Shown piece by piece: positions 1,780-64,000 of a stretch of 64,000 nucleotides of DNA (positions are counted from its first letter, which is position 1; the number at the start of each line of letters is the position of its first letter). This stretch comes from Spirochaeta thermophila DSM 6578 (GTDB lineage Bacteria > Spirochaetota > Spirochaetia > Winmispirales > Winmispiraceae). The stretch spans positions 744,001 through 808,000 of the forward strand of contig NC_017583.1 of NCBI RefSeq assembly GCF_000184345.1, in the 5' to 3' direction. Under the pieces are notes generated by a model that saw only the letters and a program-made list of their open reading frames with translations, searched no databases and was not told the DNA's origin. Both the position numbers and the translations under genes were made by a program.

Positions 1780-2246
1780 GACAAGAGGATCTCACCTCAC
1801 GGATGGAAGACTACCTGGAGGCCATCTACGTGCTCGCGAAGACCAAGCGGGTGGCCCGGGTGCGGGACATCGCCGAGGCCCTCGGCGTGTCCCGCTCCAC
1901 GGTCTCCAACACCCTCCATACCCTCTCGGATAAGGGGTTCATCGAGTATGCGCCGTACGACATCATCAGTCTCACCGAGGAAGGGGAAGAGGCCGCCAAG
2001 GACGTCTTCCGGAGACATACCATCCTCAAGCGGTTCTTCCGGCTGGTCCTCGGCGCGGAGGAGCAGATGGCCGAGGAGAACGCCTGCCGCATCGAGCACG
2101 CCATTTCGGAGGAGCTCCTGGAGCGACTCGTGCAGTACCTCGAGTTCATCCAGGAGTGTGTGCCTGCGCCCTTCCGTTACGATCCCGAGAAGGGTGCCTT
2201 CGTGTGCGAGGACAGGGAAGACGAGGATGTCTCACCCCCGGCGTGA
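1776..2246 (+). CDS. DtxR/MntR-family metal-dependent repressor
   Basis: A 156-aa protein with an N-terminal winged helix-turn-helix (residues about 12-62, IAEALGVSRSTVSNTL) and the all-helical metal-binding/dimerisation domain. No C-terminal SH3-like domain is present, so its length is that of MntR rather than DtxR. Of the expected metal ligands, Asp12 (MEDYLEAIY) matches MntR, while the downstream motif ACRIEH carries Cys where MntR has Glu, as in DtxR/IdeR. The metal (Fe2+ or Mn2+) therefore cannot be decided from sequence. Co-transcription with feoB favours iron. The start is the ATG overlapping the feoB stop. Its 3' end overlaps the convergent channel gene by 15 bp. Confidence 0.9.
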   Translation: MRQEDLTSRMEDYLEAIYVLAKTKRVARVRDIAEALGVSRSTVSNTLHTLSDKGFIEYAPYDIISLTEEGEEAAKDVFRRHTILKRFFRLVLGAEEQMAEENACRIEHAISEELLERLVQYLEFIQECVPAPFRYDPEKGAFVCEDREDEDVSPPA

Positions 2247-3527
2247 GGTCCCGCCCTCCAGTTCCTCTTTCCGCCTGACGGCGAGTTCCTGTATCTGGGC
2301 TGCGATCTCCGGATACCGTGAGAGTATCCTGTCGAAGGTCTCCTTGTCGAGGCGGTAGAGATCGCAGAACGCTCGGGCCCGCACGGTGGCGGTGCGGGGA
2401 GCCCTGAGGATGAGGGCCATCTCGCCGAAGAACTGTCCTTCCGAGAGGATGGCGTAGCGGGTCTTTTCGTCGGCGGAGAGGACCTCCACCGAACCGCGGT
2501 TGATGAAGTACACGTCGGAACCCATCTCTCCCGCCCGTATGATGTACTCCCCCGGTCCATAGATGACCGGTTCGAGGTGGAGGATGATGTCCCGGATGAA
2601 CTCCTCGCCCGCCCCCTTGAAGAGGGGCACCTTCTCGATCACGTCGCCGTGGATCTCCATGGCCACTGCGAGGCGGAGGGGATGCGGGAGCTCCTTGAGC
2701 ACCTCGCGTTCCTCGTAGCCCCGTCTCGTCTCCCACAGGTAGTCGAAGTACTCGATGATGCGTCGCTGGAGCTCGGGTGAGATCCTCTTATAGGAGAGGA
2801 AGGCCGTGACCCTCTCCACCCGCTCCCTGTGGAGGAGCTTTGCGGCGTCCAGTTTCGAGACGAGGCTCGCGATGTTACCGATGACCAGGCCGTACATGGC
2901 CGCACCGAGGAGCTCTATCACGATGGTGTAGACGGTCTGGGTGGGGGTCGAGGGGGTGATGTCGCCGTATCCGATGGTGGTGAGGGTGGTGATGGTCCAG
3001 TAGAAGGCGGAGAGGTACCTCGTTCCGGCCGGGTTCTCCGAAGGAGGCTGGAGGCTCATCCATCCGCAGGCGATGCCGTGTGCGGCGAGGAGGATGAACC
3101 CGACGAGGGAGAGAAGCCTGAGGAGGGCGGGGTTGATCCTGTAGGAGAGGATCCGGGTGGCGCTCCGCTGCACCGAGATGAGCTTGAGGAGCCTGACGAG
3201 CGAGAGGAGGGAGAGGGGAGAGGGGAGGTGGAGGGCGAACACCAAGAGATCGAGCGGGAGTGCCGCCAGGAGGTCGGGAAGGCGGGAGGGGGCGAGGAGC
3301 GTGGGCTTTCGGCCGGAGGTCCGCCGGGACTCGAAGGCAAGGTCGAGGGGGATGTCGGCGATGAGGGCGAGGCTCGCGAGGATGTCGAGGGGAAGAAGGG
3401 GGGAAAAGAGGGAGGGAAAGACCAGGGTGAGGGGGATGCGGATCGCGTAGTAGAGGGTGACCGCAAGGATCCACACCTTCCACACAAGGGTGTATGTGGG
3501 ATTTGAAACGCCCGAGGACTTCATCAC
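2232..3527 (-). CDS. Cyclic-nucleotide-gated potassium channel
   Basis: A 431-aa six-transmembrane channel. S1-S4 occupy roughly residues 14-150, with basic residues in the S4 region (LVRLLKLISVQRSATR). S5, the pore helix and the K+ selectivity filter TTIGYGD follow, then S6. The C-terminal cyclic-nucleotide-binding domain carries the phosphate-binding cassette FGEMALI with PRTATVRA. A C-linker lies between S6 and this domain. The family conducts K+ and is opened by cAMP or cGMP binding on the cytoplasmic side. The start has a ribosome-binding site AAGGAG 5 nt before the first of two consecutive ATGs. The gene is monocistronic, convergent with the DtxR gene and divergent from the next membrane protein. 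Confidence 0.92.
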   Translation of the reverse strand: MMKSSGVSNPTYTLVWKVWILAVTLYYAIRIPLTLVFPSLFSPLLPLDILASLALIADIPLDLAFESRRTSGRKPTLLAPSRLPDLLAALPLDLLVFALHLPSPLSLLSLVRLLKLISVQRSATRILSYRINPALLRLLSLVGFILLAAHGIACGWMSLQPPSENPAGTRYLSAFYWTITTLTTIGYGDITPSTPTQTVYTIVIELLGAAMYGLVIGNIASLVSKLDAAKLLHRERVERVTAFLSYKRISPELQRRIIEYFDYLWETRRGYEEREVLKELPHPLRLAVAMEIHGDVIEKVPLFKGAGEEFIRDIILHLEPVIYGPGEYIIRAGEMGSDVYFINRGSVEVLSADEKTRYAILSEGQFFGEMALILRAPRTATVRARAFCDLYRLDKETFDRILSRYPEIAAQIQELAVRRKEELEGGTSRRG

Positions 3528-7716: not shown

Positions 7717-9284
7717 GCGATGCCTCCCTGCGCCTGCATCCGCGCGAGGGCCTCGTCCATCCGGAGAGGCCGCCACATCCCCTCGGTGCGGACGTAGCCG
7801 TAGGCCTCCTCCATCACGCGCCTAAAGCCGGCGGAGAGGGCGCGCGCGGTCCGGGCCAGCTCTGGTCTGGAGGCGAAGAAGGCTTCGAGCTCGGACCTGC
7901 CGAAGTGGAGGCCGCCGGTGAGGAAGGTCTCGAGGAGGAGCTTTGCCGCGAGGAACCTGCGGAACTTGTCCACCCCGAAGACGAGCGGCCGCTCGATGAG
8001 GTCCATCACCTCCCAGGTGATCTGCTCGGCCTGGGCGTACCGCCCTGCGTCCTTCTCCTGCTCGGAGACCCTGAGGGGGAGCGTGCGGATGATGTGCTCG
8101 AGGTGCGCGGTGAGATGGGTGAGGTCGAAGAGCCCGATGGCGCAGTTGAAGAGGACCGGCCTGCCTTCCTTCTCGAAGGCGGCCACGGCTTCTTTGGGAA
8201 TGGCCGGGCCTATGTCCCTGCAGGAGAGCACCTCGCCTGCACGGACGAGGATGCCGCCCTTCACGTCCACCGGGGTCTTGTAGGAGAACTCGAACGAGGC
8301 CTGGGCCCGGGAGAAGGCCGTGTAGGCGAGGGTGCGTGGTTCCACGAAGGCGCCCAGGTTGTCCACGTTGGTGAGGTAGACGAAGCGGAACCCCTCCTCG
8401 TGGAGCCTCCGGTAGATGCCTTCGAGGACCATGAAGTTCTGGCCGTGGCCGCCCGGGAGGGGAAGGACCTCGCCGTCTTTCCCGTACGCCCGGGTGAAGA
8501 TCCGCCGCGGGAGTCCCTCCTCGCGGTGCGTGAGGGCCGCCACGAGGGGCTGCTGGGCGGAGAGGGTGGGGTCCACGCGATAGCCTGTATGCGCGAAGAG
8601 TTCTTCGAGGAGGGGATGGCCTCTGAGCTCCTCGAGGTGTGCCATCACCTGCTCGTGGGTCGCGGGACTGGTCATCTGGAAGAAAGGGAGCACCGTGCCC
8701 CTCAAGGGGGTGTGCCACTGCTCTGCCATGCGCCGGTAGAGGGCCACACAGAAGAGCAGGTTGCGCAGGGTGAGGGCCAGGAAGCTCGGCCCGCCCGAGG
8801 TGTCCTCCTGGTAGAAGGCGGGGCACGCCCCCTTGGCCGACCCCTTCACGCGGGGGGCGACCGCCTCGAAGGGGGTGCGGTAGACCTCGAACAGGTCGGG
8901 CTCGAAGGCCCGGTTCCGCGTGAGGTCCGCATAGCTCGTGGCTGCCCCTCCGTTGAGCACGCCGTAGGCGGTGCGGGGGTAGAGGGCTACGCCCAGGAGA
9001 AAGAGCGCCGCATCGTCGAGCACCACCGGAGCTTCCCTCCCGTACCGATCGATGAGGGATGAGGGGATGCTCAGTTCCTCTGCTCGGGAGAGGAATGCGG
9101 CGCGGGGGAGGGTGAGGGAGAGGGACTGGGTGGCGTCCACGATGCGTGGATCGCCGGCCGAGGGGAGCTCGAAGGCGGGGGCGGCCTCCGGTCCGGCGGC
9201 GTTCACCCGCTCCAGTATCGCGTAGGTGAGATCGGGGTCGATTCCGGCCGTGCGCATCTTCTGGATGAGGGCATCGTCCTGCAC
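7713..9284 (-). CDS. UTP-sugar-1-phosphate uridylyltransferase (UDPGP family)
   Basis: A 523-aa protein resembling the eukaryote-type UDP-sugar pyrophosphorylase family (UDPGP). The variant nucleotide-binding loop is [16 protein letters not shown], followed by the Lys-containing [26 protein letters not shown] and [16 protein letters not shown] follow, the last being the uridine/metal-binding Asp segment. It would make UDP-glucose or UDP-N-acetylhexosamine from a sugar 1-phosphate. I prefer the GTG at 9284, which has AAGGAGG 4 nt upstream. An ATG at 9302 overlapping the glk stop is the alternative. It sits between glk and hisI with tight spacing, so glucose phosphorylation and nucleotide-sugar formation appear co-expressed. 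Confidence 0.8.
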
Positions 9285-9294
9285 AGCTCCTCCT

Positions 9295-10368
9295 TCAGTC
9301 ATGGATGAGGATCCCTGCGGCGTAGGCTGCACCGTAGAGCGAGATGCTGTAGTCGGTGATGATGTACACCGGGATGCGGGAGAGCACCGCCCGGATGTTG
9401 GGTCTGCAGTTCGCCTCGAAGGCCTCCATGAAGGCAGAGCTCTCCAGGAAGAGGGGGATGTTCTTCGCCGCGATCCCGCCCGCGAGGTAGAGGCCGGCGG
9501 TGGGCAGGAAGGTGAGGGCGAAGGCCGCGGCGACGTGCCCGTAGAGGCGGGCGAAGAGTTCCATGGTGCGGCGGCACCCCTCGTGCGAGCCGCGGTGCCG
9601 GGCGATGAGGGGGGGGCGGTCTTCAGGGGGGTGGGAGAGGATGGTGCGGGTGGTCTCGTCTTGCTCGATCCGGCCTGTCTCCACCAGGAAGGCGAAGAGG
9701 TTGGCAATCCCCTGTCCCGAGACCACCGCCTCGGCGTCGGGCGTGGGGGCGTAGCGGGAGGCGAGGTAGCGCCGGAGCGCATCCCCGTCTTCATCATCGG
9801 CCGGAAAGTCGATGTGGCCCCCCTCGGAGGGATAGGCGTGGAACTCCCCCCTGTCCTCCACGAGGAACCCCACGCCGAGCCCGGTCCCGGCTCCGATCAC
9901 GGCCCGCACCACCCCCCTCCTCGGAGGGATGCGCCCGTCCGTGTGGGGTATGGGCACGAGCTTCTCCTCGGCCTGGCGCTCCAGGATGGGTACCCCGTAG
10001 CAGATGGCCGAGAAGTCGTTGATGACCACCGTCTTCACCCCAAGATCCCTGTGTATGGCCTCGCCGTCGATGATCCAGGGGAGGTTGGTGAGGTGACACA
10101 CGTTCTCCTCCACCGGTCCTGCGCCGGATGCGCACAACCCGTGGATGTGGATCCCTGTCCCGAGGGTCTCCTGGATGTCCTCTATCACCTGCGAGAGGGC
10201 TTCCTCCAGGTTCGCGAGTTCCCTGCTCGCGAACTCCCAGTGGGCGAGCATGGCGAGTCGCCCGCCCTGTCGCTCGAAGAGGGCGATGTTGGTGTTGGTT
10301 CCTCCGATGTCGGCCGCGAGAAGCACGGCCCCTGCAGGCGGGTGTTGCGAAAACCATTCTCTCTTCAT
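9295..10368 (-). CDS. glk: Glucokinase
   Basis: A 357-aa glucokinase of the bacterial Glk type (PF02685) rather than ROK. The phosphate-binding motif near the N terminus is LAADIGGTNTNIALF, the sugar-binding and catalytic segment is VVINDFSAICYGVP with the catalytic Asp, and the second nucleotide motif is VIGAGTGLGVGFL. It phosphorylates glucose with ATP in the cytosol. The chosen ATG has no ribosome-binding site, but a promoter sits directly upstream with its -10 box ending 7 nt before the codon, suggesting a leaderless transcript. It is first in the operon with the uridylyltransferase and hisI. Confidence 0.9.
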   Translation of the reverse strand: MKREWFSQHPPAGAVLLAADIGGTNTNIALFERQGGRLAMLAHWEFASRELANLEEALSQVIEDIQETLGTGIHIHGLCASGAGPVEENVCHLTNLPWIIDGEAIHRDLGVKTVVINDFSAICYGVPILERQAEEKLVPIPHTDGRIPPRRGVVRAVIGAGTGLGVGFLVEDRGEFHAYPSEGGHIDFPADDEDGDALRRYLASRYAPTPDAEAVVSGQGIANLFAFLVETGRIEQDETTRTILSHPPEDRPPLIARHRGSHEGCRRTMELFARLYGHVAAAFALTFLPTAGLYLAGGIAAKNIPLFLESSAFMEAFEANCRPNIRAVLSRIPVYIITDYSISLYGAAYAAGILIHD

Positions 10369-41242: not shown

Positions 41243-44200
41243 CTAGAACTGCAGGGTCATGGCTAGGCCTGCCATCCATCCGAGGACCGTCACCTGGTTC
41301 TCTTCTTCCACAGCGGCCGAGAGGAAGGCCCTGAAGTTGCCGGAGGTGCCGTAGAGGAGGGTCGAGGTGTGGGTGAGGGAGACGGCGTAGTCCGTGTCTC
41401 CGTCTTCCCCGCCGGTGAGGGTGAGGTCTGCCTGTTCGGTGTGGCGGAGGACGGGTGGGTGCGCTTTCCACGGTTCGAGGGGTGGGGCGTAGGTCCAGGA
41501 GGGGGCGGGGGTGTCCCATACGTAGGAGAGGGAGGCCTCTTCCTTCCAGGGGGAGGGGCTCCCAGGTGAGAGGGTGAGGGTGTGTGAGAGGAGGAGCCCC
41601 TGCGGGGCTTCGATGTAGAATCCTGCGGTCTCGTTCCAGGTGAGGGTCCAGGTGGTGTGGGCGCTCTCGAGTACGTGGGAGAAGGTGAGGGTGAGGATCC
41701 GGGTGAACTCGTCGAGGAGGTAGAGGGTGGTGAGGGGGTGGGCTGCCTGGGCGCCGAAGAGGTTGATGGCCTGGAAGGCGAGGGAGGATGTGAGGGTGCG
41801 GGTGGTGAGGGGTCTGCCTTCGGTGAGTGTGTACGTCACGCCGAAGGAGGAGGAGAGGGTCCGCGGGATCAGGAGGTCGAGGGGGGTGAGGGAGGGGGGC
41901 AGGGTGAGCGAGAGGCCGGTTCGGGGGGTGTAGGTGAGGGTGTCGGTGGCGGGGACGTGGAGGTCGTTCGAGGTGAGGAAGAGCTCGTAGAAGGGGATGG
42001 AGGTGTAGGGGAGTGGGATCCGGGCGAGGGCTCTGGTGTGGGAGGTCCAGTCCTCGGGGAAGTGGTCGGATGGTGAGGGTTCTTCTTCGAGGGTGAGGGT
42101 GCGGGTGTAGAAGGGACTGAGGGTGAGTTGCGGGGTGAGGGTGTGGGAGGTGGTGAGGGAGACTGTGTGGGTGTGGGTGCGGGTGGCGAGTGGTGGGGAG
42201 GTGGTGGTCTGTGCGGTGAGGGTGAGGGTCGTGGATTGGTGCGGGGTCTGGTAGGTGGGGGAGAGGGTGAGGGAGGAGGTGCGGGTGGTGGTCCCGTCGG
42301 AGGGGAGGGGGACGGCTTCCTCCCAGGATGCGAGATAGGAGTCGGGGTAGGTGTCTGGGGGGGCGGGGGTGTCCTGGATGGTCTGGGAGAGGGTGCTGCG
42401 GCCGGAGAGGCCGAAGGGAGAGGGGGTGAGGTCGGCGGTGAGGGTCCAGGTGCGGTTGAGGATGGTGGGGGTGTGTGAGAGGGAGTGGGAGAGGGAGGCG
42501 TTGACGGGGGTGAGGGAGAGGCCGAGGGAGGAGGAGTGGGTGAGGGAGGAGGTGGGGAGGATGGTGTGGCCGAAGGTGTCGGTGAGGGTGAGGGGACCTG
42601 CGGGGAGGGTGAGGGAGTGATCCAGGTGGAAGGCTTCCGGCTCGGATCCGTGGAAGGTGCCGGAGAGGCCGAGGCCGAGGATCGCGGTGAGGAGGGAGAG
42701 GGAGCCGTGGGTGGAGAAGGCGGTGGTGGTGGGGGTTTCGTCGAGAGGGGTGACGGCGGCGACCTGCTGGGTGAGGGTGAGCCGGTGGAGGAGCGGGGTG
42801 GAACCGAGTGAGACGAGGGGGGAGGGATGGGAGAGGGTGAGGGTGAGGGAGGAGAGGAGGGCGGTGGGGTTCTCCGGGTCGTGGGCGAAGACCTCGTCGG
42901 CGTGGAGTCTGCCTGTGGCGGGGGGATCGATGCAGGTGAGGGCGAGGCGGGTGAGGGAGCCCGTCGCGGCGTCGTCCTCGAGGGATGCGCCGGAGAGGGG
43001 CGTCTCGTCCAGGAGTACGCCGCCTCCGGTGGTGTCGAGGGTGAGGAGGTGCCAGGTGTCGTCGGCGGGGAGGGTGATGCCGGAGGCGTGGAGGCCGCGG
43101 CCGTCGGGTGTGGTGAGGGAGAGGAGGAGGGAGAGGGATGAGGCTGCGCCGTTCTTGAGGAAGATCGAGATGCGTCGATAGGAACCCGCGGGAAGGGAGG
43201 GGATGGAGGTGCGGGCGGCCCACGACCAGGAGGGGTCGGGGGCTGCGTTGTCCCAGGTGACGGTGAGTGACTTCTGGTCGGCCTCCTCCTCGAACCGGGA
43301 GGAGACCAGGGTGCTGGAGGCGGGGAGGGTGGGGTCGGGGCCGGTGGAGGCGGTGATGGTGGCGTCGGGGTCGGTGGAGGAGGTGTGGAAGGGACTGCCG
43401 AGGAGGGTGGGGGCCGAGAAGAGGATGCGGCCCGAGGAGGCGCCGGTGGTGGCGGTGCGGACGGCGAGGAGGCGGAGGGTGCGGGCCTGGGAGGCGAGGG
43501 CTCGGAGCTGGGGGGGCAGGTGGATGGTGAGGGTGTTCCACCCGGTGGTCGAGGAGATCCCCTGGGCGATCCTGAAGGTGAGGGTGCGGGAGGTGTCTTC
43601 GGGATCGAGGAGGCCGTTTCCGTTCGCATCCTCGCTGCTCATGCGGTTGTCGGGGAGGTTCGAGGGGTCGGTGCCCAGGCGGAGCACCGCCTGGTGGGCG
43701 GTGTCATGGAAGGGGAAGCCGGGGTCGTAAGGGCTTCCCTCCTCTTCCAGGACTCCGTCGGCGTCGATATCCTCGGCGAGGGGACCGATCTGGAGGTAGA
43801 GATCGAAGGTGCTGCCGGAAAGGCGGTCGGCTTTCCATGACAGGGAGAGCCCGGCGACTTCGTCGGGCGGATCACCGATCGGTATCTGCCCTCCCGTCCA
43901 GGATTCCCCGTCTGCGAGTTCGAAGTCGAGGGCCATGCACGCCTCGTCGAATCCTGCTCCTTCCGCCGCCACCAGGTAGGGACCGGTCTTCTCGCCTGTG
44001 GTGTAGGGATGGATCTGCTCCTCAGGCGGGGTCCAGGTGTAGTCCTGCAGCGAGCCCCGTCCGTAGACGGTGTAGTGGTAGTAGTCCTTGTAGATGAGTT
44101 TCCCCCGGTTCGCGGGGGAGAGTCCGGTGAGATCTCCGACGTCGGAGAGCGGGGAGGCCGGATCCCTCACGAGGGTGGTGTCGGCGGGGGGAGCGGCGGG

Positions 44201-45946
44201 AAAGAGCGATGCCTCGTCGTAGCGCAGGGTGAGCGAGCCCTTCTCCATGGTGAGGAGCCTGAGGTAACCGGTGGTGTCGGTGAGGGTGTGGCGGATGCCC
44301 ACGTCGGCCCGGAGGTCGAGGCCCTCCCCCCTGTGGTCAAGTTCGACCGATCCCCGGATATCGCCCGAAGCCTCCCCGGGGGAGGACGTGAAGCGCTCCT
44401 CTGTGAGCGGATACCGGACCGAGGCTGCGAGGTTGAGCGTGGTATGGGGCGAGAGGGAGAAGGTGTTGCCGCTGGCTGCGACCAGGTCTGTTCCGGCTTC
44501 ACCTTCCCGGGTACGGTAGTAGATGTCGATGGTGTGGGCGGTCGAGACCTGGTACGGAAGGGTGATGACGCCTGTCTCGTAGTCCACCTGCGCCGCGGTT
44601 TCCTCCTGCCCGTTGACCAGCACGCGGACAGTGCCGGGCTGGGCGTCCGCGGGTATGGTGAGGGCCTCCACCGGTGAGAGGGTGCGGAGCAGGATCTCGT
44701 GCCCGGGATACTCCGGGTGCGTGGTGCGCCGGGGGCCGTAGAGGAGGGGATACTCCCGGGCGAAGGGGTAACGCGCCGCAGGGGTGCGCGCATCTTCACC
44801 TTCCCTCCGGACTGTCACCAGACTCCCTTCCTTCACCAGGCGGGCCGAAGGGGTGAGGACGGCCTCCTCTTCGGAATCCCGCTCGACCAGGAGTATCTCT
44901 TCCGTGTCCTCGGGGACCTCGTAGGCCCAGAGAGCCTCGAAGGGGGTGAAACCGGCAGGGACGTAGACGAGGAGGGCCGTCCTCGACTCCAGGTCGATCC
45001 TGAGTCGGCTCATGTCCATCCCCAGGTAGTTCGTGCCCCAGTCGAAGTCCTCGGCCGGGGCCTCCGGATCGAGGAGTCCGCCTGTGGTGCCGCACAAGGC
45101 CTCGCGGCCCAGCGAGGCGTCCCCCACCGGAACACCCCCCACCGTGTAGTAGACGGCCACCCGGCCGGGTGGCGGCTCGTTCAGGGCGAGGGTACCCTCC
45201 TTCAGGGAGTAGCTCAGTTCGTCCTCCCGCGCCCGCCTCCACCTCGTGCCGTCGTCTGCGGTGAGGGTACCCTCCCCGTCTTCCAGGTACACGGTGAGAC
45301 TGTCGAGGTCGGTGTCGGGGAGCACGAAGAACCGTCCCCTCGTGTACGAGCCGAGGCCCTTCCGGATCTCGTCCACCGTGGCCAGACCGCGGTAGCGGAT
45401 GTGTCCCGTGGTGGAGGGGTCGAGCCGCACCATGAACTCGTGGAAGCTCCATGGTCCCACGAAGGAGGCGGACACCCCGAGCGATCCCCTCGAAGGACCT
45501 GGAAGGTCGAGGTACCGGTAGTTCCCGATACCCACCCCGGTGTTCCCCGCCCTCACCGACTGCACCACCTCTCCTTCCTTTCCCCGGTAACCGAAGAGAT
45601 ACGTGCTGTCGTCCAGGTCGTCCTGCACCGTGATCTCCACGAAGTATCGCTCCATGTACCAGAGCGAGAGGAGGAAGTCCGCCTGCTGGGTGTAGGCGAA
45701 TCCCGGGGTGAGATCCTCAGGCACGTAGCCGGATATCCACGTCCCGTCGGGCATGCGGGCCCAGCCCGCAGCAAAGGTGGCGCTGCTCTCCCACGTGCCG
45801 GCCGCGTAGAGCACGAGGTCCTCGTCGTCCACTGTGGTGGCGAAAAGTTCCTGAGGCGCCTCCTCCGGAAGGGGGGGAGGGGCTTCCTGGGCCCCCACGC
45901 CCCAGAGGAGGCCGAGGACGATGGGGATGATCGTGCGAGGTCTCAC
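41243..45946 (-). CDS. Very large surface/outer-membrane protein, Thr/Leu/Ser-rich
   Basis: A 1567-aa exported protein from the GTG at 45946 (signal-like PRTIIPIVLGLLWGVGAQE); the frame is open further upstream without a signal. The first ~700 residues look beta-rich. Calcium-binding-type loops occur in the middle (DIDADGVLEEE and DANGNGLLDPED). The last ~600 residues are dominated by alternating Thr/Ser and Leu, often written by CTCACC-like codons, ending in AMTLQF. A C-terminal Phe and alternating strands suggest an outer-membrane barrel. I recognise no named family. The opposite strand is strongly G-rich over 41.4-43.6 kb. Confidence 0.65.
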   Translation of the reverse strand: MRPRTIIPIVLGLLWGVGAQEAPPPLPEEAPQELFATTVDDEDLVLYAAGTWESSATFAAGWARMPDGTWISGYVPEDLTPGFAYTQQADFLLSLWYMERYFVEITVQDDLDDSTYLFGYRGKEGEVVQSVRAGNTGVGIGNYRYLDLPGPSRGSLGVSASFVGPWSFHEFMVRLDPSTTGHIRYRGLATVDEIRKGLGSYTRGRFFVLPDTDLDSLTVYLEDGEGTLTADDGTRWRRAREDELSYSLKEGTLALNEPPPGRVAVYYTVGGVPVGDASLGREALCGTTGGLLDPEAPAEDFDWGTNYLGMDMSRLRIDLESRTALLVYVPAGFTPFEALWAYEVPEDTEEILLVERDSEEEAVLTPSARLVKEGSLVTVRREGEDARTPAARYPFAREYPLLYGPRRTTHPEYPGHEILLRTLSPVEALTIPADAQPGTVRVLVNGQEETAAQVDYETGVITLPYQVSTAHTIDIYYRTREGEAGTDLVAASGNTFSLSPHTTLNLAASVRYPLTEERFTSSPGEASGDIRGSVELDHRGEGLDLRADVGIRHTLTDTTGYLRLLTMEKGSLTLRYDEASLFPAAPPADTTLVRDPASPLSDVGDLTGLSPANRGKLIYKDYYHYTVYGRGSLQDYTWTPPEEQIHPYTTGEKTGPYLVAAEGAGFDEACMALDFELADGESWTGGQIPIGDPPDEVAGLSLSWKADRLSGSTFDLYLQIGPLAEDIDADGVLEEEGSPYDPGFPFHDTAHQAVLRLGTDPSNLPDNRMSSEDANGNGLLDPEDTSRTLTFRIAQGISSTTGWNTLTIHLPPQLRALASQARTLRLLAVRTATTGASSGRILFSAPTLLGSPFHTSSTDPDATITASTGPDPTLPASSTLVSSRFEEEADQKSLTVTWDNAAPDPSWSWAARTSIPSLPAGSYRRISIFLKNGAASSLSLLLSLTTPDGRGLHASGITLPADDTWHLLTLDTTGGGVLLDETPLSGASLEDDAATGSLTRLALTCIDPPATGRLHADEVFAHDPENPTALLSSLTLTLSHPSPLVSLGSTPLLHRLTLTQQVAAVTPLDETPTTTAFSTHGSLSLLTAILGLGLSGTFHGSEPEAFHLDHSLTLPAGPLTLTDTFGHTILPTSSLTHSSSLGLSLTPVNASLSHSLSHTPTILNRTWTLTADLTPSPFGLSGRSTLSQTIQDTPAPPDTYPDSYLASWEEAVPLPSDGTTTRTSSLTLSPTYQTPHQSTTLTLTAQTTTSPPLATRTHTHTVSLTTSHTLTPQLTLSPFYTRTLTLEEEPSPSDHFPEDWTSHTRALARIPLPYTSIPFYELFLTSNDLHVPATDTLTYTPRTGLSLTLPPSLTPLDLLIPRTLSSSFGVTYTLTEGRPLTTRTLTSSLAFQAINLFGAQAAHPLTTLYLLDEFTRILTLTFSHVLESAHTTWTLTWNETAGFYIEAPQGLLLSHTLTLSPGSPSPWKEEASLSYVWDTPAPSWTYAPPLEPWKAHPPVLRHTEQADLTLTGGEDGDTDYAVSLTHTSTLLYGTSGNFRAFLSAAVEEENQVTVLGWMAGLAMTLQF

Positions 45947-46004
45947 CTCTTGTATTATTCGTCGAAACACCTCAATATGTAAACGAAAAAGGAGAGGAAT
46001 TCCC

Positions 46005-46937
46005 ATGGAGCGCTCCGCAACGATCCCGGATGCGGCCCTGGATCTTATGCGACGTTTCTTCGAGAACCCCATGCTCTCCTCCTTCACCCCCCTCCAGCGG
46101 GAGGAGCGCATCATCCAGCTCCTCGGTCAGCAGGGCGACGTCCTCGCTCCCCGGCTCATCCGTGACTACTTCCCCCGCTCCACATGGAACCAGGTGCTCG
46201 CCCTCCTGGTGCCCGCCCTGAGGGAGGTGACCGACGAGGCCCTCTTCCCCCGGCTCGAGGAGATCGTTCGTGGTCTCTCCTGGAAGTTCCTCGCCCTCCT
46301 CGATGAAAAGCCCATCCCCCACGCCCAGGTGGCCGACCAGGTGCTCGCGTTCCTCCGGAAGGTGCTCGCCCGGCAGGACGCGAGGCTCGCCTTCACCGGT
46401 CCCTCCACGGCCCTGTTCCACCGGGTCTTCGATCGCTACCTCCAGGCCATCTGCGCGGAGCGGGGATATGTGTACTTCGAGCTCTCCAAGGTGGAACGCC
46501 TCTCCATGGGCAAGGAGGAGCTGGGCGGGTTCCTGTCGACCCTCCTCCTCCTGCGGCCCGCCCTCTACCTGCTCACTCCCGACTCGGGTACCGACTTCCG
46601 TGAGCGCGTCTCGGGCGTGGTGCGTGCCTCCTTTGCCGAACGCCTCTCACGTGCCCTCGCCCGCGAGATCCCCCTCCTCCCGACGAAGGTGGTGGAAGCG
46701 GCGGTCCTCTCGCACGTCTCCTTCGAGGAGAATCCCGGCCTTCCCGCCTCCTCCCGTCTCGTGGCCGTGTTTTCCCACCGCTGCAGGACCTTCCGCCCCG
46801 ACATCACCGTGGACCGGGGGGCCGAGTCGCCCGACAAGAGTTGGTTCGCCGCGGCGAGGAGGACGTGGCGGCTCTATGGATTCGATCACAAGATGCTCGA
46901 CGAGCTCTACCGAATCTCTGCGGAATACGGGTGGTGA
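46005..46937 (+). CDS. Helical protein of unknown function
   Basis: A 310-aa soluble, largely helical protein with no signal peptide or membrane segment and no motif I recognise. AAAGGAGAGG lies about 8 nt before the ATG. It is the first gene of a three-gene plus-strand unit: 3 bp to the voltage-sensor-like membrane protein, then 5 bp to the DUF503 gene. It is divergent from the giant surface-protein gene with only 58 bp between starts, so their promoters must overlap. Confidence 0.65.
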   Translation: MERSATIPDAALDLMRRFFENPMLSSFTPLQREERIIQLLGQQGDVLAPRLIRDYFPRSTWNQVLALLVPALREVTDEALFPRLEEIVRGLSWKFLALLDEKPIPHAQVADQVLAFLRKVLARQDARLAFTGPSTALFHRVFDRYLQAICAERGYVYFELSKVERLSMGKEELGGFLSTLLLLRPALYLLTPDSGTDFRERVSGVVRASFAERLSRALAREIPLLPTKVVEAAVLSHVSFEENPGLPASSRLVAVFSHRCRTFRPDITVDRGAESPDKSWFAAARRTWRLYGFDHKMLDELYRISAEYGW

Positions 46938-46940
46938 CCT

Positions 46941-48047
46941 ATGGACGGCAAGACGACGCGAAGAGGATTTCTGGAAGGTCTCGTGACGGCGGCCATACTC
47001 CTCGTCCTCGTGCAGACCGTGCTCGAGGACTTGGCCGTGCTCCTCATGTGGGAGTGGAGGTGGAGGAAGGCTCTCCTCCTCGCAGGTTTCGGGTTCGATG
47101 TGTTCTTCACCCTCGAATTCCTGGTGAGGAGCATCGCGGCTGCATCGGAAGGGCGGTTCGCCCGCTATTTCTCGAAAGAACGCGGGTGGATCGACTTCTT
47201 CGCCTCGGTGCCTCTTCTCGTCTTCAACTCGGGGCCCGAGGTGTTCTCGCTCCTCTACGGCGGGGCCGCGTTCGTGGGGGTGGCGGGCAAACTCAAGCTC
47301 CTCAAGGTGGTGAAGATCATCCGCATGGCCCGTATCCTCAGGCTCCTGAGGGGGCTCAAACTGGTGAAGCAGATCGCCTACATCGACTCTCCCATGACCC
47401 AGCACCACATCTCCCGCATCGCCTCCCTGGTGGTGACCGCCGAGCTGGTGGTGCTCTTCGTTTACAGCATCCTCCCGGTCTTCCTTCCCCTCAAGGGCGT
47501 GGAGGAGCGGTACGTGGCCAGGGTGGTGCGCACCGGCCATGTCTTCACCGAGATGGAGGACACCCTCACCCGCGACCAGGTCCTCACCCTCGCGGCTGCG
47601 CACGAGGAAGTACTCGTGGTGCGCACCGGGGGGCAGCAGCTCTATTCCCGCTACGACGACTCGTTCTACGATCGGATGTTCGGTCCGCAGGACTACGCCT
47701 ACTACAGGGAAGGTCCGCTGGAGGTCTTCTTCGACATGCGGCCCGTACATGTCGAGTCGGCACGGCTCTCGCTCCTTGCGCTCTCCACGGTGCTGGTGTG
47801 TCTCTTCCTCCTCCTCTTCGTCTATGCCCCGCACTTCGCCCTCACGGTGACCGATCCCCTGCGGGTGGTAGAACGGGGTCTCTCCGAGCCGGACTACGAG
47901 CTCGCCGCACGGGTATACCCAGAGTATGGAGACCACGAGGTCTTCCGGGTGGCCCGCCTCTACAACGAGGAGCTCCTCCCCCGCAAGCTCTCGGAAGGCG
48001 GGTGGACCCCCGTGGGGGGGATAGAGGATCTGTTGGGGGAGGAGTAG
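46941..48047 (+). CDS. Voltage-sensor-like membrane protein without a pore, with HAMP-like tail
   Basis: A 368-aa protein. Residues 15-144 look like the four helices of an ion-channel voltage sensor: S1 about 15-37, S2 44-66 with an acidic residue (FFTLEFLVRS), S3 82-97 (GWIDFFASVPLLV) and a strongly basic S4 at 117-144 (Lys/Arg about every third residue, for example VKIIRMARILRLLRG). No selectivity filter follows. Instead there is a membrane helix (157-182), an extracytoplasmic domain of about 90 residues, another helix (about 271-300) and a region like a HAMP linker (VTDPLRVVERGL, then HEVFRVARLYNEELL). Function unknown; it could be a voltage- or stress-sensing signalling protein. Confidence 0.65.
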   Translation: MDGKTTRRGFLEGLVTAAILLVLVQTVLEDLAVLLMWEWRWRKALLLAGFGFDVFFTLEFLVRSIAAASEGRFARYFSKERGWIDFFASVPLLVFNSGPEVFSLLYGGAAFVGVAGKLKLLKVVKIIRMARILRLLRGLKLVKQIAYIDSPMTQHHISRIASLVVTAELVVLFVYSILPVFLPLKGVEERYVARVVRTGHVFTEMEDTLTRDQVLTLAAAHEEVLVVRTGGQQLYSRYDDSFYDRMFGPQDYAYYREGPLEVFFDMRPVHVESARLSLLALSTVLVCLFLLLFVYAPHFALTVTDPLRVVERGLSEPDYELAARVYPEYGDHEVFRVARLYNEELLPRKLSEGGWTPVGGIEDLLGEE

Positions 48048-48052
48048 TGCCT

Positions 48053-48340
48053 ATGGTGGTCTCGGTGCTGCGTATCCTCATAGAGCTCCCTGGGGTGCAC
48101 TCCCTCAAGGAGAAACGGAGCATCGTCTCGTCGCTCAAGGACAAGCTCATCCGTCGGTTCAAGATCTCGTTCGCCGAGGTGGACCTGCACGACAGCTTGG
48201 GGTTCGCCGAGATGGGGGGTGCGGTGGTCTCCAATTCGTCGGCCTTCGGGGAGGGTGTGCTCCAGAAGGTCCTCGCCTTCGTGGAGGCCGAGGTGCCGGG
48301 CCGGGTCTACGACGTGTGGATCCACTCCGAGCAGTACTAG
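48053..48340 (+). CDS. DUF503 (YlxP-like) protein
   Basis: A 95-aa protein of the DUF503 family. The motif HSLKEKRSIVSSLKDKLIRRFKISFAEVD is the family core, followed by GFAEMGGAVVSNS and a C-terminal VEAEVPGRV. Members often lie in nusA-infB-rbfA operons and are of uncertain role, perhaps RNA-linked. Here it is the third gene after the voltage-sensor-like protein. GGGGGAGGAG precedes the ATG. Its stop overlaps the convergent ComFB-like gene at CTAG. Confidence 0.85.
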   Translation: MVVSVLRILIELPGVHSLKEKRSIVSSLKDKLIRRFKISFAEVDLHDSLGFAEMGGAVVSNSSAFGEGVLQKVLAFVEAEVPGRVYDVWIHSEQY

Positions 48341-49047
48341 GAGAGGGCCTCTTCGGACTCCTCGTCGGGGGGGGCGAGGTAGAGGTCGGGGAGTACGAGG
48401 GTCTCTTCGGGGGGGCCTTCGGCCTCGGCGGGGCGGGAGGAGAGCTCGATGGTGAAGTAGTGCCGGAGCGGGAGGTATCCCTCCTTGTCGACATGGATGC
48501 ACAGCTCGAAGGAGGCCTTCTCGTCCTTCCGCGGGGCGGGAAAGGGGGCGGGGAGGAAGACGAAGGTGCCGGGAAGGGCCTTGGTGATGTAGTAGGGGTT
48601 CTGCCAGCGCGCGTCGATCATGGGCACGGCCTTCCCCTCGTGGACGAGGAGCACGGTGATGTCGGCTGCGGGCTCGAAGGTGGGGGCGAGGAGGAGTCTG
48701 CCCCTGATGACCGGGAAGTGGAAGAGGTAGTCGGCGGCCGGTGGCGAGGGGGAGGATGCCTGGTAGTAGGGGCGCCTGATGCTCGTGATGCGTTTGAGGC
48801 CCTCGGTGGCGAGGGTGAGGATGTCGATGAGGAGTTGGGGGTCTTCCTCGTAGTGGACGCTCGTGTAGGCCACGCCGCGGGCCGAGCTCACGTACCGTGG
48901 CGGCACCCTGTTGAGCACGTAACAGACGATGTCCTGTCTGCACTCTTCGGTGAGGCAGTACTTGTCTGGTTCGGTGTGCGCCTTCTCCTTGCAGAGATCG
49001 TCCACCACACGGGTGACGATGTCCTCCATGAGGTTATGGACCTTCAT
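48337..49047 (-). CDS. ComFB-domain protein with C-terminal extension
   Basis: A 236-aa protein. Residues 1-75 match the late-competence ComFB family: VHNLMEDIVTRVVDDL, two cysteines in YCLTEECRQDIVCYVLNRVPPRYV, and SSARG. ComFB-type domains in other bacteria bind zinc and, in some lineages, cyclic dinucleotides. The remaining ~150 residues are a beta-rich extension I do not recognise, ending in an acidic tail. Its start overlaps the ttcA 3' end by 14 bp, so it is the third gene of an HD hydrolase-ttcA-comFB operon. Confidence 0.75.
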   Translation of the reverse strand: MKVHNLMEDIVTRVVDDLCKEKAHTEPDKYCLTEECRQDIVCYVLNRVPPRYVSSARGVAYTSVHYEEDPQLLIDILTLATEGLKRITSIRRPYYQASSPSPPAADYLFHFPVIRGRLLLAPTFEPAADITVLLVHEGKAVPMIDARWQNPYYITKALPGTFVFLPAPFPAPRKDEKASFELCIHVDKEGYLPLRHYFTIELSSRPAEAEGPPEETLVLPDLYLAPPDEESEEALS

Positions 49048-51763: not shown

Positions 51764-53434
51764 CTTTCAGTATCCTCTAGCGGATCGTGGGGACTGCAAC
51801 ATATAACCCCCCAAAGGGGTTCTTGGCGCTCATAGCTTTCAGTATCCTCTAGCGGATCGTGGGGACTGCAACCGATGAAGTGGTGGATAGGCTGTTGGAA
51901 TTGTATGATCTTTCAGTATCCTCTAGCGGATCGTGGGGACTGCAACATGCTTCCTCTGCATGAGATACCGCATCTTTTTTCCAGCTTTCAGTATCCTCTA
52001 GCGGATCGTGGGGACTGCAACTCTGTATAATCATATCAATACAACCCTCGAGAAATACTTTCAGTATCCTCTAGCGGATCGTGGGGACTGCAACTCTAAT
52101 AGCGATTACGACTCGCGCGGGGTCTTAATAAGCTTTCAGTATCCTCTAGCGGATCGTGGGGACTGCAACTCACATTGTGTTTCCTCGGAGATGACAGTCT
52201 GCTCATCCTTTCAGTATCCTCTAGCGGATCGTGGGGACTGCAACAGTGCACGTACAAGGTGAGGATTTTGGCGATTTAAACTTTCAGTATCCTCTAGCGG
52301 ATCGTGGGGACTGCAACCACAGTACGCGTTGATAATGCAGATCTTATATTTGTCTTTCAGTATCCTCTAGCGGATCGTGGGGACTGCAACTCCCCCTGGC
52401 CCTGGCGGTTTGTCTTGCCGACATGCCCACTTTCAGTATCCTCTAGCGGATCGTGGGGACTGCAACCATGCCTTGGTGATGTGGTGCGTGTGTCGCGGAT
52501 GGTCCTTTCAGTATCCTCTAGCGGATCGTGGGGACTGCAACCCCAACGAGTCCCACCCAGGTGGCATGCTACCCATGTCCTTTCAGTATCCTCTAGCGGA
52601 TCGTGGGGACTGCAACGCAATATACCGAGCGCTCGAACACAAACCAACTCCAGCTTTCAGTATCCTCTAGCGGATCGTGGGGACTGCAACTAAAAGCTGT
52701 GATGCCAACAGATACATCATTCGTACTTTCAGTATCCTCTAGCGGATCGTGGGGACTGCAACCTGGCTGATAAGCAGCTCGATAAATGCAATAGTAACGC
52801 TTTCAGTATCCTCTAGCGGATCGTGGGGACTGCAACCTCTACGACGATAGCTGATGTCAGCGCTGCCATCGCCCTTTCAGTATCCTCTAGCGGATCGTGG
52901 GGACTGCAACTTGGAGGATTAATTACAGGTGCAGCCGGCACTATTGCCTTTCAGTATCCTCTAGCGGATCGTGGGGACTGCAACTCAGATCCCACAGAAA
53001 CATAATACTCTCCTCCTGTACCTTTCAGTATCCTCTAGCGGATCGTGGGGACTGCAACGGCCACGCCCCCGTGAGACGTAGCCCTCTGAGTGATGTACTT
53101 TCAGTATCCTCTAGCGGATCGTGGGGACTGCAACTTATAGTAAGGTTGTATATGGTATGGTGCCTCATCGGCTTTCAGTATCCTCTAGCGGATCGTGGGG
53201 ACTGCAACATATCGCATTGTGCCTTTTCAGACACCACCATCTGCTCTTTCAGTATCCTCTAGCGGATCGTGGGGACTGCAACACCCCCAGTCGTCTGCGG
53301 CTGCGCCAAACGCTCCAGGCTTTCAGTATCCTCTAGCGGATCGTGGGGACTGCAACTCCGATATGATCCGCCGCGTATCGATGCGCCTATCAAGAATCTT
53401 TCAGTATCCTCTAGCGGATCGTGGGGACTGCAAC
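51764..53434 (+). CRISPR. CRISPR array 1: 23 repeats of 37 bp, 22 spacers
   Basis: By my count there are 23 repeats of 37 bp that look identical. The repeat begins CTTTCAGTATCCTCTAGCGG and ends ATCGTGGGGACTGCAAC. Spacers are 35-41 bp, mostly 37-38. The repeat end ACTGCAAC suits an 8-nt crRNA 5' handle, and the promoter-bearing leader on the left sets the transcription direction to plus. The last repeat is intact, with no degenerate end. The repeat can fold with CAGT (positions 5-8) pairing to ACTG (30-33). Translated frames across the array are artefacts of the repeat. Confidence 0.98.
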
Positions 53435-53561
53435 AGCCCCCTCTCCAGTCCCCTGAGCTGAGGTTCTTCCCCAGACACATGTGTATTGTACCATATCTTC
53501 GCGAGTTAGCAAAGGGGTTTTTTCATCGTGGTTTTGTCCCCTCAGGTGAGATGCCGCGTGG

Positions 53562-63271: not shown

Positions 63272-64000
63272 CTTTCAGTATCCTCTAGCGGATCGTGGGG
63301 GCTGCAACGATACCAGACGTGCAGGGTGTATGCGTATAACCATCTACCTTTCAGTATCCTCTAGCGGATCGTGGGGGCTGCAACTAATGCGGCGTTAAAG
63401 TCGGTATTGATGCCGTTCTATCTCTTTCAGTATCCTCTAGCGGATCGTGGGGGCTGCAACGTCGTGTCGATGGGGCGGTTATCGTGCCCACGGGAACTTT
63501 CAGTATCCTCTAGCGGATCGTGGGGGCTGCAACTATTCTCATATATCAAACAGTCAATAAAGAAATTCTTCTTTCAGTATCCTCTAGCGGATCGTGGGGG
63601 CTGCAACGACATACCGCGACGATATCAGACTGTACAGGCCGTATCTTTCAGTATCCTCTAGCGGATCGTGGGGGCTGCAACTATTCATCACTTCGACCCA
63701 TCCTTCGCCCGGATGTGTCTTTCAGTATCCTCTAGCGGATCGTGGGGGCTGCAACCTGACGATGACATCGCAGTGGTCTATTACGACGACGACTTTCAGT
63801 ATCCTCTAGCGGATCGTGGGGGCTGCAACAGCTCGATATAAGCCTCGCTATTGCTCAGGCCGCAAAGGCCTTTCAGTATCCTCTAGCGGATCGTGGGGGC
63901 TGCAACAGGCGCTTGGCGTGTACAGCTGCACAGTGTCCATGTCACTTTCAGTATCCTCTAGCGGATCGTGGGGGCTGCAACCAAAAGCAGGCAAAAGCAG
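63272..64000 (+). CRISPR. CRISPR array 2: at least 10 repeats, runs off the window
   Basis: Ten repeats of the same 37-bp sequence in the same orientation as array 1, each with G instead of A at position 30 (GGGGGCTGCAAC). Nine complete spacers of 36-40 bp and the start of a tenth are visible. Only 44 bp separate the csc1 stop from the first repeat and no promoter-like leader is seen there. No degenerate repeat is visible. Confidence 0.97.

Follow-up and report, generated by a model that had tools for sequence, protein, structure and literature searches.

The computations described here show that a single gene of Spirochaeta thermophila DSM 6578 encodes a complete voltage-sensor domain fused, via an S4–TM5 linker, to a two-helix bacterial receptor, that this receptor has neither a recognisable pore nor a fused output domain, and that it comes with a recurrent partner gene, here called F03. 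As far as our searches show, the joining of a voltage sensor to a HAMP receptor is a new architecture assembled from two known modules, and it is conserved across many lineages of one phylum, the Spirochaetota. We suggest that the protein is voltage-tuned and signals through its HAMP segment to F03, a reading whose probability we put at roughly 0.55; the chief evidence against it is that lineages with a degraded sensor keep the gene pair and that part of the family is without F03.

The gene lies in a stretch of 64,000 nucleotides (the whole of the DNA analysed, hereafter the window) that corresponds to positions 744001–808000 of a genome of 2.56 Mb in a single contig. Among the matches listed in openly licensed literature there was no description of the architecture or of its Borrelia genes, the receptor/F03 pair there being presumably BB0674 and BB0675. 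The features on which the argument depends are given below in the numbering of the window, with their basis in brackets.

46005..46937, + strand: F03, candidate output partner, 310 aa, predicted to be all-helical and soluble (open reading frame with its start set at the ATG at 46005; AlphaFold2)
46941..48047, + strand: whole gene of the receptor without a recognisable pore, 368 aa, ATG start
46944..47372, + strand: voltage-sensor domain S1–S4, residues 2–144, with F56, E59 and R63 in S2 and D85 in S3 (Pfam Ion_trans, AlphaFold2, VIA, conserved residues)
47295..47369, + strand: S4 basic ladder, residues 119–143, nine K/R, one at every third residue (sequence, chance control)
47391..47483, + strand: TM5, residues 151–181, in the place of a channel S5 (AlphaFold2; the Pfam match ends at residue 180)
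47499..47735, + strand: extracytoplasmic domain, residues 187–265, helices and four strands, variable (AlphaFold2; Foldseek top row WalK, E 0.07)
47739..47975, + strand: TM6 and HAMP segment, residues 267–345 (AlphaFold2; hhalign)
47976..48044, + strand: C-terminal tail, residues 346–368, a short acidic-hydrophobic end and possible docking motif (tail comparison)
48053..48340, + strand: DUF503 (PF04456) gene, 95 aa, third gene of a probable operon (family profile; Pfam on the L039 orthologue)

The voltage-sensor domain

An earlier note, made from the letters of this DNA, had read an S1–S4 layout into residues 15–144, with a basic residue at about every third position of S4, and both claims are borne out by the sequence family, the predicted structure and the homologues. 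In the window protein, PF00520 (Ion_trans) is matched over residues 19–180 with E 1.7e-9 and 37.7 bits (cut-off 25), and the same family is matched by all 23 aligned homologues at E <= 0.1 (best E 8.8e-16). With the single sequence, phmmer matches Kv1.3 only weakly (E 0.18), in an alignment that pairs the 'F..E...R' of S2 (F56, E59), the 'ID' of S3 (D85) and the S4 run. The AlphaFold2 model of the receptor (mean pLDDT 77, pTM 0.72) places the sensor helices at residues 2–34 (S1), 39–69 (S2), 82–106 (S3) and 118–134/137–144 (S4), S4 being its less certain part (ten-residue pLDDT means of 42, 60, 70 and 61 over residues 111–150); compared with known voltage-sensor domains, this predicted model contains the S1–S4 bundle, and its S4 is not cytosolic.

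All 50 rows listed by VIA for the receptor are voltage-gated-like channel chains (Nav, Cav, Kv, TPC, CNG, TRP and their kin) or SLC9C1, most of them aligned over S1–S4 and with Z of 8.8–12.1, among them Cav2.3 (Z 12.1, rmsd 3.5 over 125 aa), Nav1.7 (8i5g; Z 11.7, rmsd 1.9 over 103 aa) and SLC9C1 (8pd5; Z 10.7, rmsd 2.5 over 111 aa), scores that have to be read with the proviso that helical bundles can reach a Z of up to about 13 without much significance and that folds not listed in the VIA tables are not thereby excluded. We consider the sensor match credible because the rows belong uniformly to one superfamily and the sequence family agrees.

The ladder of S4 consists of nine K/R at exact i+3 spacing. 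Of the 267 stop-to-stop frames of the window that reach 100 aa, none but this one has a run of more than five, and in the 311 genes neighbouring the receptor at 26 loci the longest run is four. F56, E59, R63, D85, K122, K125, R128, R131, R134, R137 and K140 are invariant in the alignment of the 23 homologues. Counting a sensor as intact when it has at least six of the nine S4 charges together with F56, E59 and D85 of the charge-transfer centre, we find it intact at 54 of 66 homologous loci, every one of which has K125, R131, R134 and R137, and 53 of which have R128. Between the sister species, the 368 receptor codons show 34 silent and 31 amino-acid-changing differences; residues 115–161 and 272–356 are free of amino-acid differences, and 13 of the 31 fall within residues 182–270, a quarter of the protein.

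The 12 loci without an intact sensor are L051, L052, L053, L089–L093, L095, L096, L105 and L108, of which L096 is probably a channel. In the Borrelia-like loci L051, L052 and L105, S4 has only four charges and the S2 glutamate is lost, with the receptor–F03 pair kept; the sensor charges are likewise reduced or gone in L089–L091 and L093, where both genes are retained. Since the charges are reduced or lost there while both genes are kept, the pair can evidently work without voltage sensing in such lineages.

Among known proteins, Kv, Nav and SthK channels share with the receptor an S1–S4 domain with a basic S4 ladder and a charge-transfer centre, but the receptor is without their recognisable pore loop and selectivity filter. 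The gene of SthK itself, a cyclic-nucleotide-gated channel, is present in the window (2232–3527, − strand; PDB match E 5.5e-275) and is the only other Ion_trans match in the genome at E <= 0.01. Like SLC9C1, the receptor has its sensor on a non-channel protein; that of SLC9C1 sits in a transporter, whereas that of the spirochaetes sits in a receptor.

Hv1 and TMEM266 also have a voltage-sensor domain without a separate pore, and we know of no external domain or HAMP in either. The example of Hv1, which conducts through its sensor, raises the alternative that the sensor domain of the receptor is itself a proton or cation pathway to which the rest of the protein is regulatory, and isolated sensor domains can conduct, as reportedly seen with that of Shaker (PMC5092046). 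Hv1, however, uses an aspartate in the middle of S1, for which the receptor offers no obvious equivalent: all 54 intact loci have Ile at position 19 and either Val, Ala or Ser at position 22, in an alignment that contains no Hv1 sequence. We regard an Hv1-like pathway as highly improbable.

In Ci-VSP and TPTE, too, a pore-less voltage-sensor domain is coupled to a cytoplasmic function. Ci-VSP carries a fused PTEN-like enzyme, as stated in a passage of a review (PMC13095418), whereas the spirochaete protein continues after S4 with two more membrane helices, an external domain and HAMP, its output probably being left to a protein of its own gene, F03.

The receptor half and the absence of a recognisable pore

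Beyond S4 the protein follows a receptor plan: the two-helix sensor with an external domain proposed in the earlier note is seen in the AlphaFold2 model and in the homologues, and, as the note had said, no selectivity filter can be recognised. In particular, the PF00520 match covers profile positions 9–148 of 241, that is S1–S4 and TM5, and leaves the second half of the profile unmatched. No filter-like motif is conserved across the 66 loci; our own short filter-like patterns, applied to residues of about 151–280, occur at only five of them, in scattered places, and nowhere in the window protein.

These results bear on the reading that the protein is a channel of six helices in disguise, with TM5 and TM6 as S5 and S6 and the external domain as an unusual pore. 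TM5 does lie inside the Ion_trans match, and the order of S1–S4, helix, insert and helix is that of a channel; set against this are the end of the match at profile position 148, the want of a conserved filter motif, the loss of the insert in two loci of one genus (L087 and L088) and the continuation of TM6 into the HAMP segment. We give a hidden channel very little weight.

The external domain, with its helices and four strands, may have a Cache or PAS fold; the top Foldseek row is WalK (9a5d_A), a weak match at E 0.07 obtained with the full-length model; no row reaches E <= 0.001, and the whole-receptor profile finds no PDB chain at E <= 0.01. The WalK row fits the receptor half, WalK-type Cache/HAMP receptors being likewise two-helix sensors with an external domain and HAMP. 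In contrast to WalK, which has a kinase, the spirochaete receptor is without an output domain and has a voltage-sensor domain before its first receptor helix. The external domain is present at 63 of the 66 loci and almost absent from L087, L088 and the divergent L093; L087 and L088 keep an intact sensor, HAMP and F03, and L093 keeps HAMP.

The HAMP-like cytoplasmic segment of the earlier note gains backing from a comparison of profiles, Pfam having missed it (PF00672 in none of 23 members at E <= 0.1). AlphaFold2 predicts a long helix at 267–315 followed by one at 333–352. hhalign aligns residues 268–356 with 25 spirochaete HAMP domains at a probability of 89.8 (E 1.8e-6) and in the register expected after a TM helix, a figure that comes from one pair of profiles, with five control comparisons below 1%. 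The comparison profile was built from 25 of 30 fetched loci (four were omitted because their length pointed to a cut flank, and one was not included). A pattern 'YN..LP.K' is conserved at the end of the segment after TM6; the HAMP end is missing in L053, L092 and L117 and partly missing in L095.

The receptor ends about 20 residues beyond HAMP. Its lack of a kinase or cyclase, also claimed in the note, holds for the window protein, which has no further Pfam domain, and for the homologues, a survey of which found fused output domains in none of 23 members. A motif of the C-terminal tail occurs at 27 of 46 F03-linked loci, where shuffled tails average 2.4, and by the strict pattern is absent from the window protein. 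We rejected the tail as an F03-docking motif: its link with F03 is not significant (Fisher p 0.24, in a set that includes some spurious long 'tails').

The sensor and the external domain together frame another alternative, namely that the voltage-sensor fold is a structural or oligomerisation module, that the external domain senses an envelope signal and that the S4 charges do not report voltage. The members that have lost S4 charges and keep receptor and F03 (the Borrelia-like ones and L089–L091) speak for it, as does the near-universal external domain, but such a module would have no obvious need for a near-invariant ladder and a charge-transfer centre at 54 of 66 loci, and L087 and L088 have dispensed with the external domain with their sensor intact. 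A purely structural role is in our judgement unlikely, though to be taken seriously.

The candidate partner F03, gene neighbourhood and spread

The earlier note had also supposed that the protein passes its signal to a partner, and this guess gains a concrete candidate in the upstream gene F03. The neighbours named there, a helical protein without a known family and DUF503, are confirmed by AlphaFold2 and by the family profile, respectively. F03 lies directly upstream of the receptor gene with a gap of 3 bp. It is found at 46 of the 66 loci (and at 25 of the first 26), always immediately upstream of the receptor and on the same strand, with gaps of −176 to +46 bp, the large overlaps among which we take to reflect start codons chosen too far upstream. 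The pair occurs also at loci without any other profiled neighbour family.

The loss of HAMP goes together with the loss of F03: F03 is missing from each of the four loci whose HAMP end is incomplete and from 15 of the 61 that have this end (Fisher p 0.0057), a test that ignores relatedness, uses hand-picked loci and counts the partial case L095, without which p is about 0.02 by hand calculation. In these counts L096 was dropped as a probable channel. L089 and L090, which score below the profile threshold, were added to the loci by hand for their place beside F03. One of the loci without HAMP, L117, is a second receptor copy, and the first copy of that genome is accompanied by F03.

The F03 model (pLDDT 91.8) resembles, as a prediction, HD-superfamily folds: the best VIA rows are the HD-GYP protein DvhD (Z 9.2, rmsd 5.0 over 167 aa), Bd1817 (Z 8.4, rmsd 4.2 over 146 aa) and PgpH (Z 7.5, rmsd 4.7 over 163 aa), although for a helical protein such as F03 a Z of 9.2 can reflect a common arrangement. 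The likeness to HD-GYP and HDOD proteins is thus one of predicted fold, whereas hhalign against 17 HD-GYP and 27 HDOD sequences from relatives was negative and no His, taken as a test for metal ligands, is invariant or nearly so in 23 members; we therefore rejected membership of these families. STAS was rejected likewise, having appeared at E of about 0.1 in one of 23 members. Foldseek gave a best E of 0.29, Pfam no convincing family in the 23 members, NCBIfam none for the two members scanned, and the F03 profile no PDB match at E <= 10.

The arrangement most often seen at the first 26 loci runs from a divergent gene for a protein of 1600 aa through F03 and the receptor to DUF503, the last identified by its family profile in 20 of them, the window included. 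In the window the large gene (41243–46114, − strand) encodes 1623 aa and is divergent from the receptor operon; its family is present at 24 of 26 loci, the product looks like an outer-membrane protein, and neither Pfam (in the L039 orthologue) nor NCBIfam (in the window protein) gave a match. Convergent with DUF503 is a ComFB-like gene (48337–49047, − strand, 236 aa; family at 21 of 26 loci), assigned through PF10719 in the L039 orthologue. In distant spirochaetes and Borrelia-like genomes the F03–receptor pair is often all that is left of the profiled families. Elsewhere in the window two CRISPR-like arrays, at about 51764–53435 and 63272–64000, are built from almost identical repeats of 37 nt (the first array has 23 copies) and sit where G+C falls to about 0.5.

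A single-protein scan of genome contigs, able to pick up no more than close relatives, gave one match; plasmids gave none at E <= 1e-3 and viral contigs none. The receptor is matched at E <= 1 in 33 of 60 relatives. Across 296 genomes of the phylum, at E <= 1e-5, it is matched in 101 and F03 in 83 (both in 79, receptor only in 22, F03 only in 4, neither in 191), the 101 being an upper count that includes, for example, matches to the sensor part only, which may be channels (G069, G196, G212, G287), and a fragment (G142). In three of the 22 genomes that lack F03 by threshold (G067, G080, G194) a divergent F03 stands beside the receptor.

Some members have other neighbours. A second subfamily (L102, L107, L109, L110, L115, L118) has an intact sensor and neither F03 nor the tail; there the voltage-sensor protein lies in the middle, between an upstream caspase-like gene and a downstream gene for a polysaccharide deacetylase. 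Pfam identifies the two genes in L109 and the deacetylase in L118; the other assignments were made by eye, in L102 from part of the upstream gene. L116 and L120 belong to this subfamily by sequence, with a different upstream neighbour and contigs that end just downstream. At all four loci of one genus (L111–L114) the receptor is followed by a channel-like gene, with Ion_trans and cNMP-binding domains by Pfam in L111 and recognised by eye in the other three. Such swaps of neighbours would fit an input module wired to different outputs. At L099 an F03-linked receptor gene is adjoined by a sodium/calcium exchanger gene (8664–9632 of that locus; PF01699, E 2.7e-71).

The channel-like genes of L111–L114, and the SthK gene 43 kb away in the genome of the window, bring up the further alternative of an accessory channel subunit, whose sensor module would regulate a cyclic-nucleotide-gated channel. 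At the F03-linked loci, however, the next genes, as far as they were identified, are DUF503 and others and no channel, and to our knowledge HAMP has no role in channel gating. An accessory subunit appears to us very unlikely.

Proposed voltage signalling, motility and significance

If the protein is a voltage-tuned receptor, as we prefer, a change in membrane potential would move S4 across the charge-transfer centre, and the S4–TM5 linker would then move TM5 and TM6. The HAMP segment, presumably in a dimer, would change state, and its end or the tail would bind or release soluble F03. F03 may relay the signal as a protein-interaction or ligand-binding module, and not as an HD hydrolase, and the extracytoplasmic domain could serve as a second input.

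A wider proposal is that channel-type sensors drive HAMP signalling across the spirochaetes and read electrical signals along the long cell, with F03 as cytoplasmic effector, and that this could be the missing sensor of voltage-dependent chemotaxis or of the coordination of the flagellar motors at the two cell ends. We consider this proposal quite unlikely as a whole, and a link with voltage-dependent spirochaete chemotaxis or motility a possible but weakly supported hypothesis. In Spirochaeta aurantia, voltage clamp reportedly inhibited chemotaxis (a study cited in PMC4841586). At the Borrelia-like locus L051, where the sensor charges are reduced, the pair stands beside CheX and response-regulator genes on the opposite strand; no chemotaxis genes were found among those neighbours that were scanned at other loci.

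FliG_C is present in 278 of the 296 genomes. All 12 genomes of one family (f8) are without FliG and also without the receptor, a joint absence that could go back to a single event. The receptor is matched and FliG is not in two incomplete genomes (G103, G176), and in another family (f24, which we take to be Treponema) FliG is present and neither receptor nor F03 was found. From this distribution it follows that motility in spirochaetes does not depend on the receptor.

The problem to which the proposal speaks is described in a review of spirochaete motility, in a passage of which the diffusion of CheY is held too slow to coordinate rapidly motors more than 10 µm apart and the signal transduction that coordinates distant motors is listed among the open issues (PMC7225975).

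Finally, in a few eukaryotic proteins a voltage sensor is known to govern some function besides a pore, and the non-channel examples named in a passage of the review on voltage-sensor proteins are phosphatases, the sperm exchanger and proton channels (PMC13095418). If the voltage-receptor reading is true, a conserved bacterial family that joins such a sensor to HAMP would make voltage a direct input to bacterial signal transduction, and it would offer a genetic handle on the old puzzle of motor coordination in spirochaetes.
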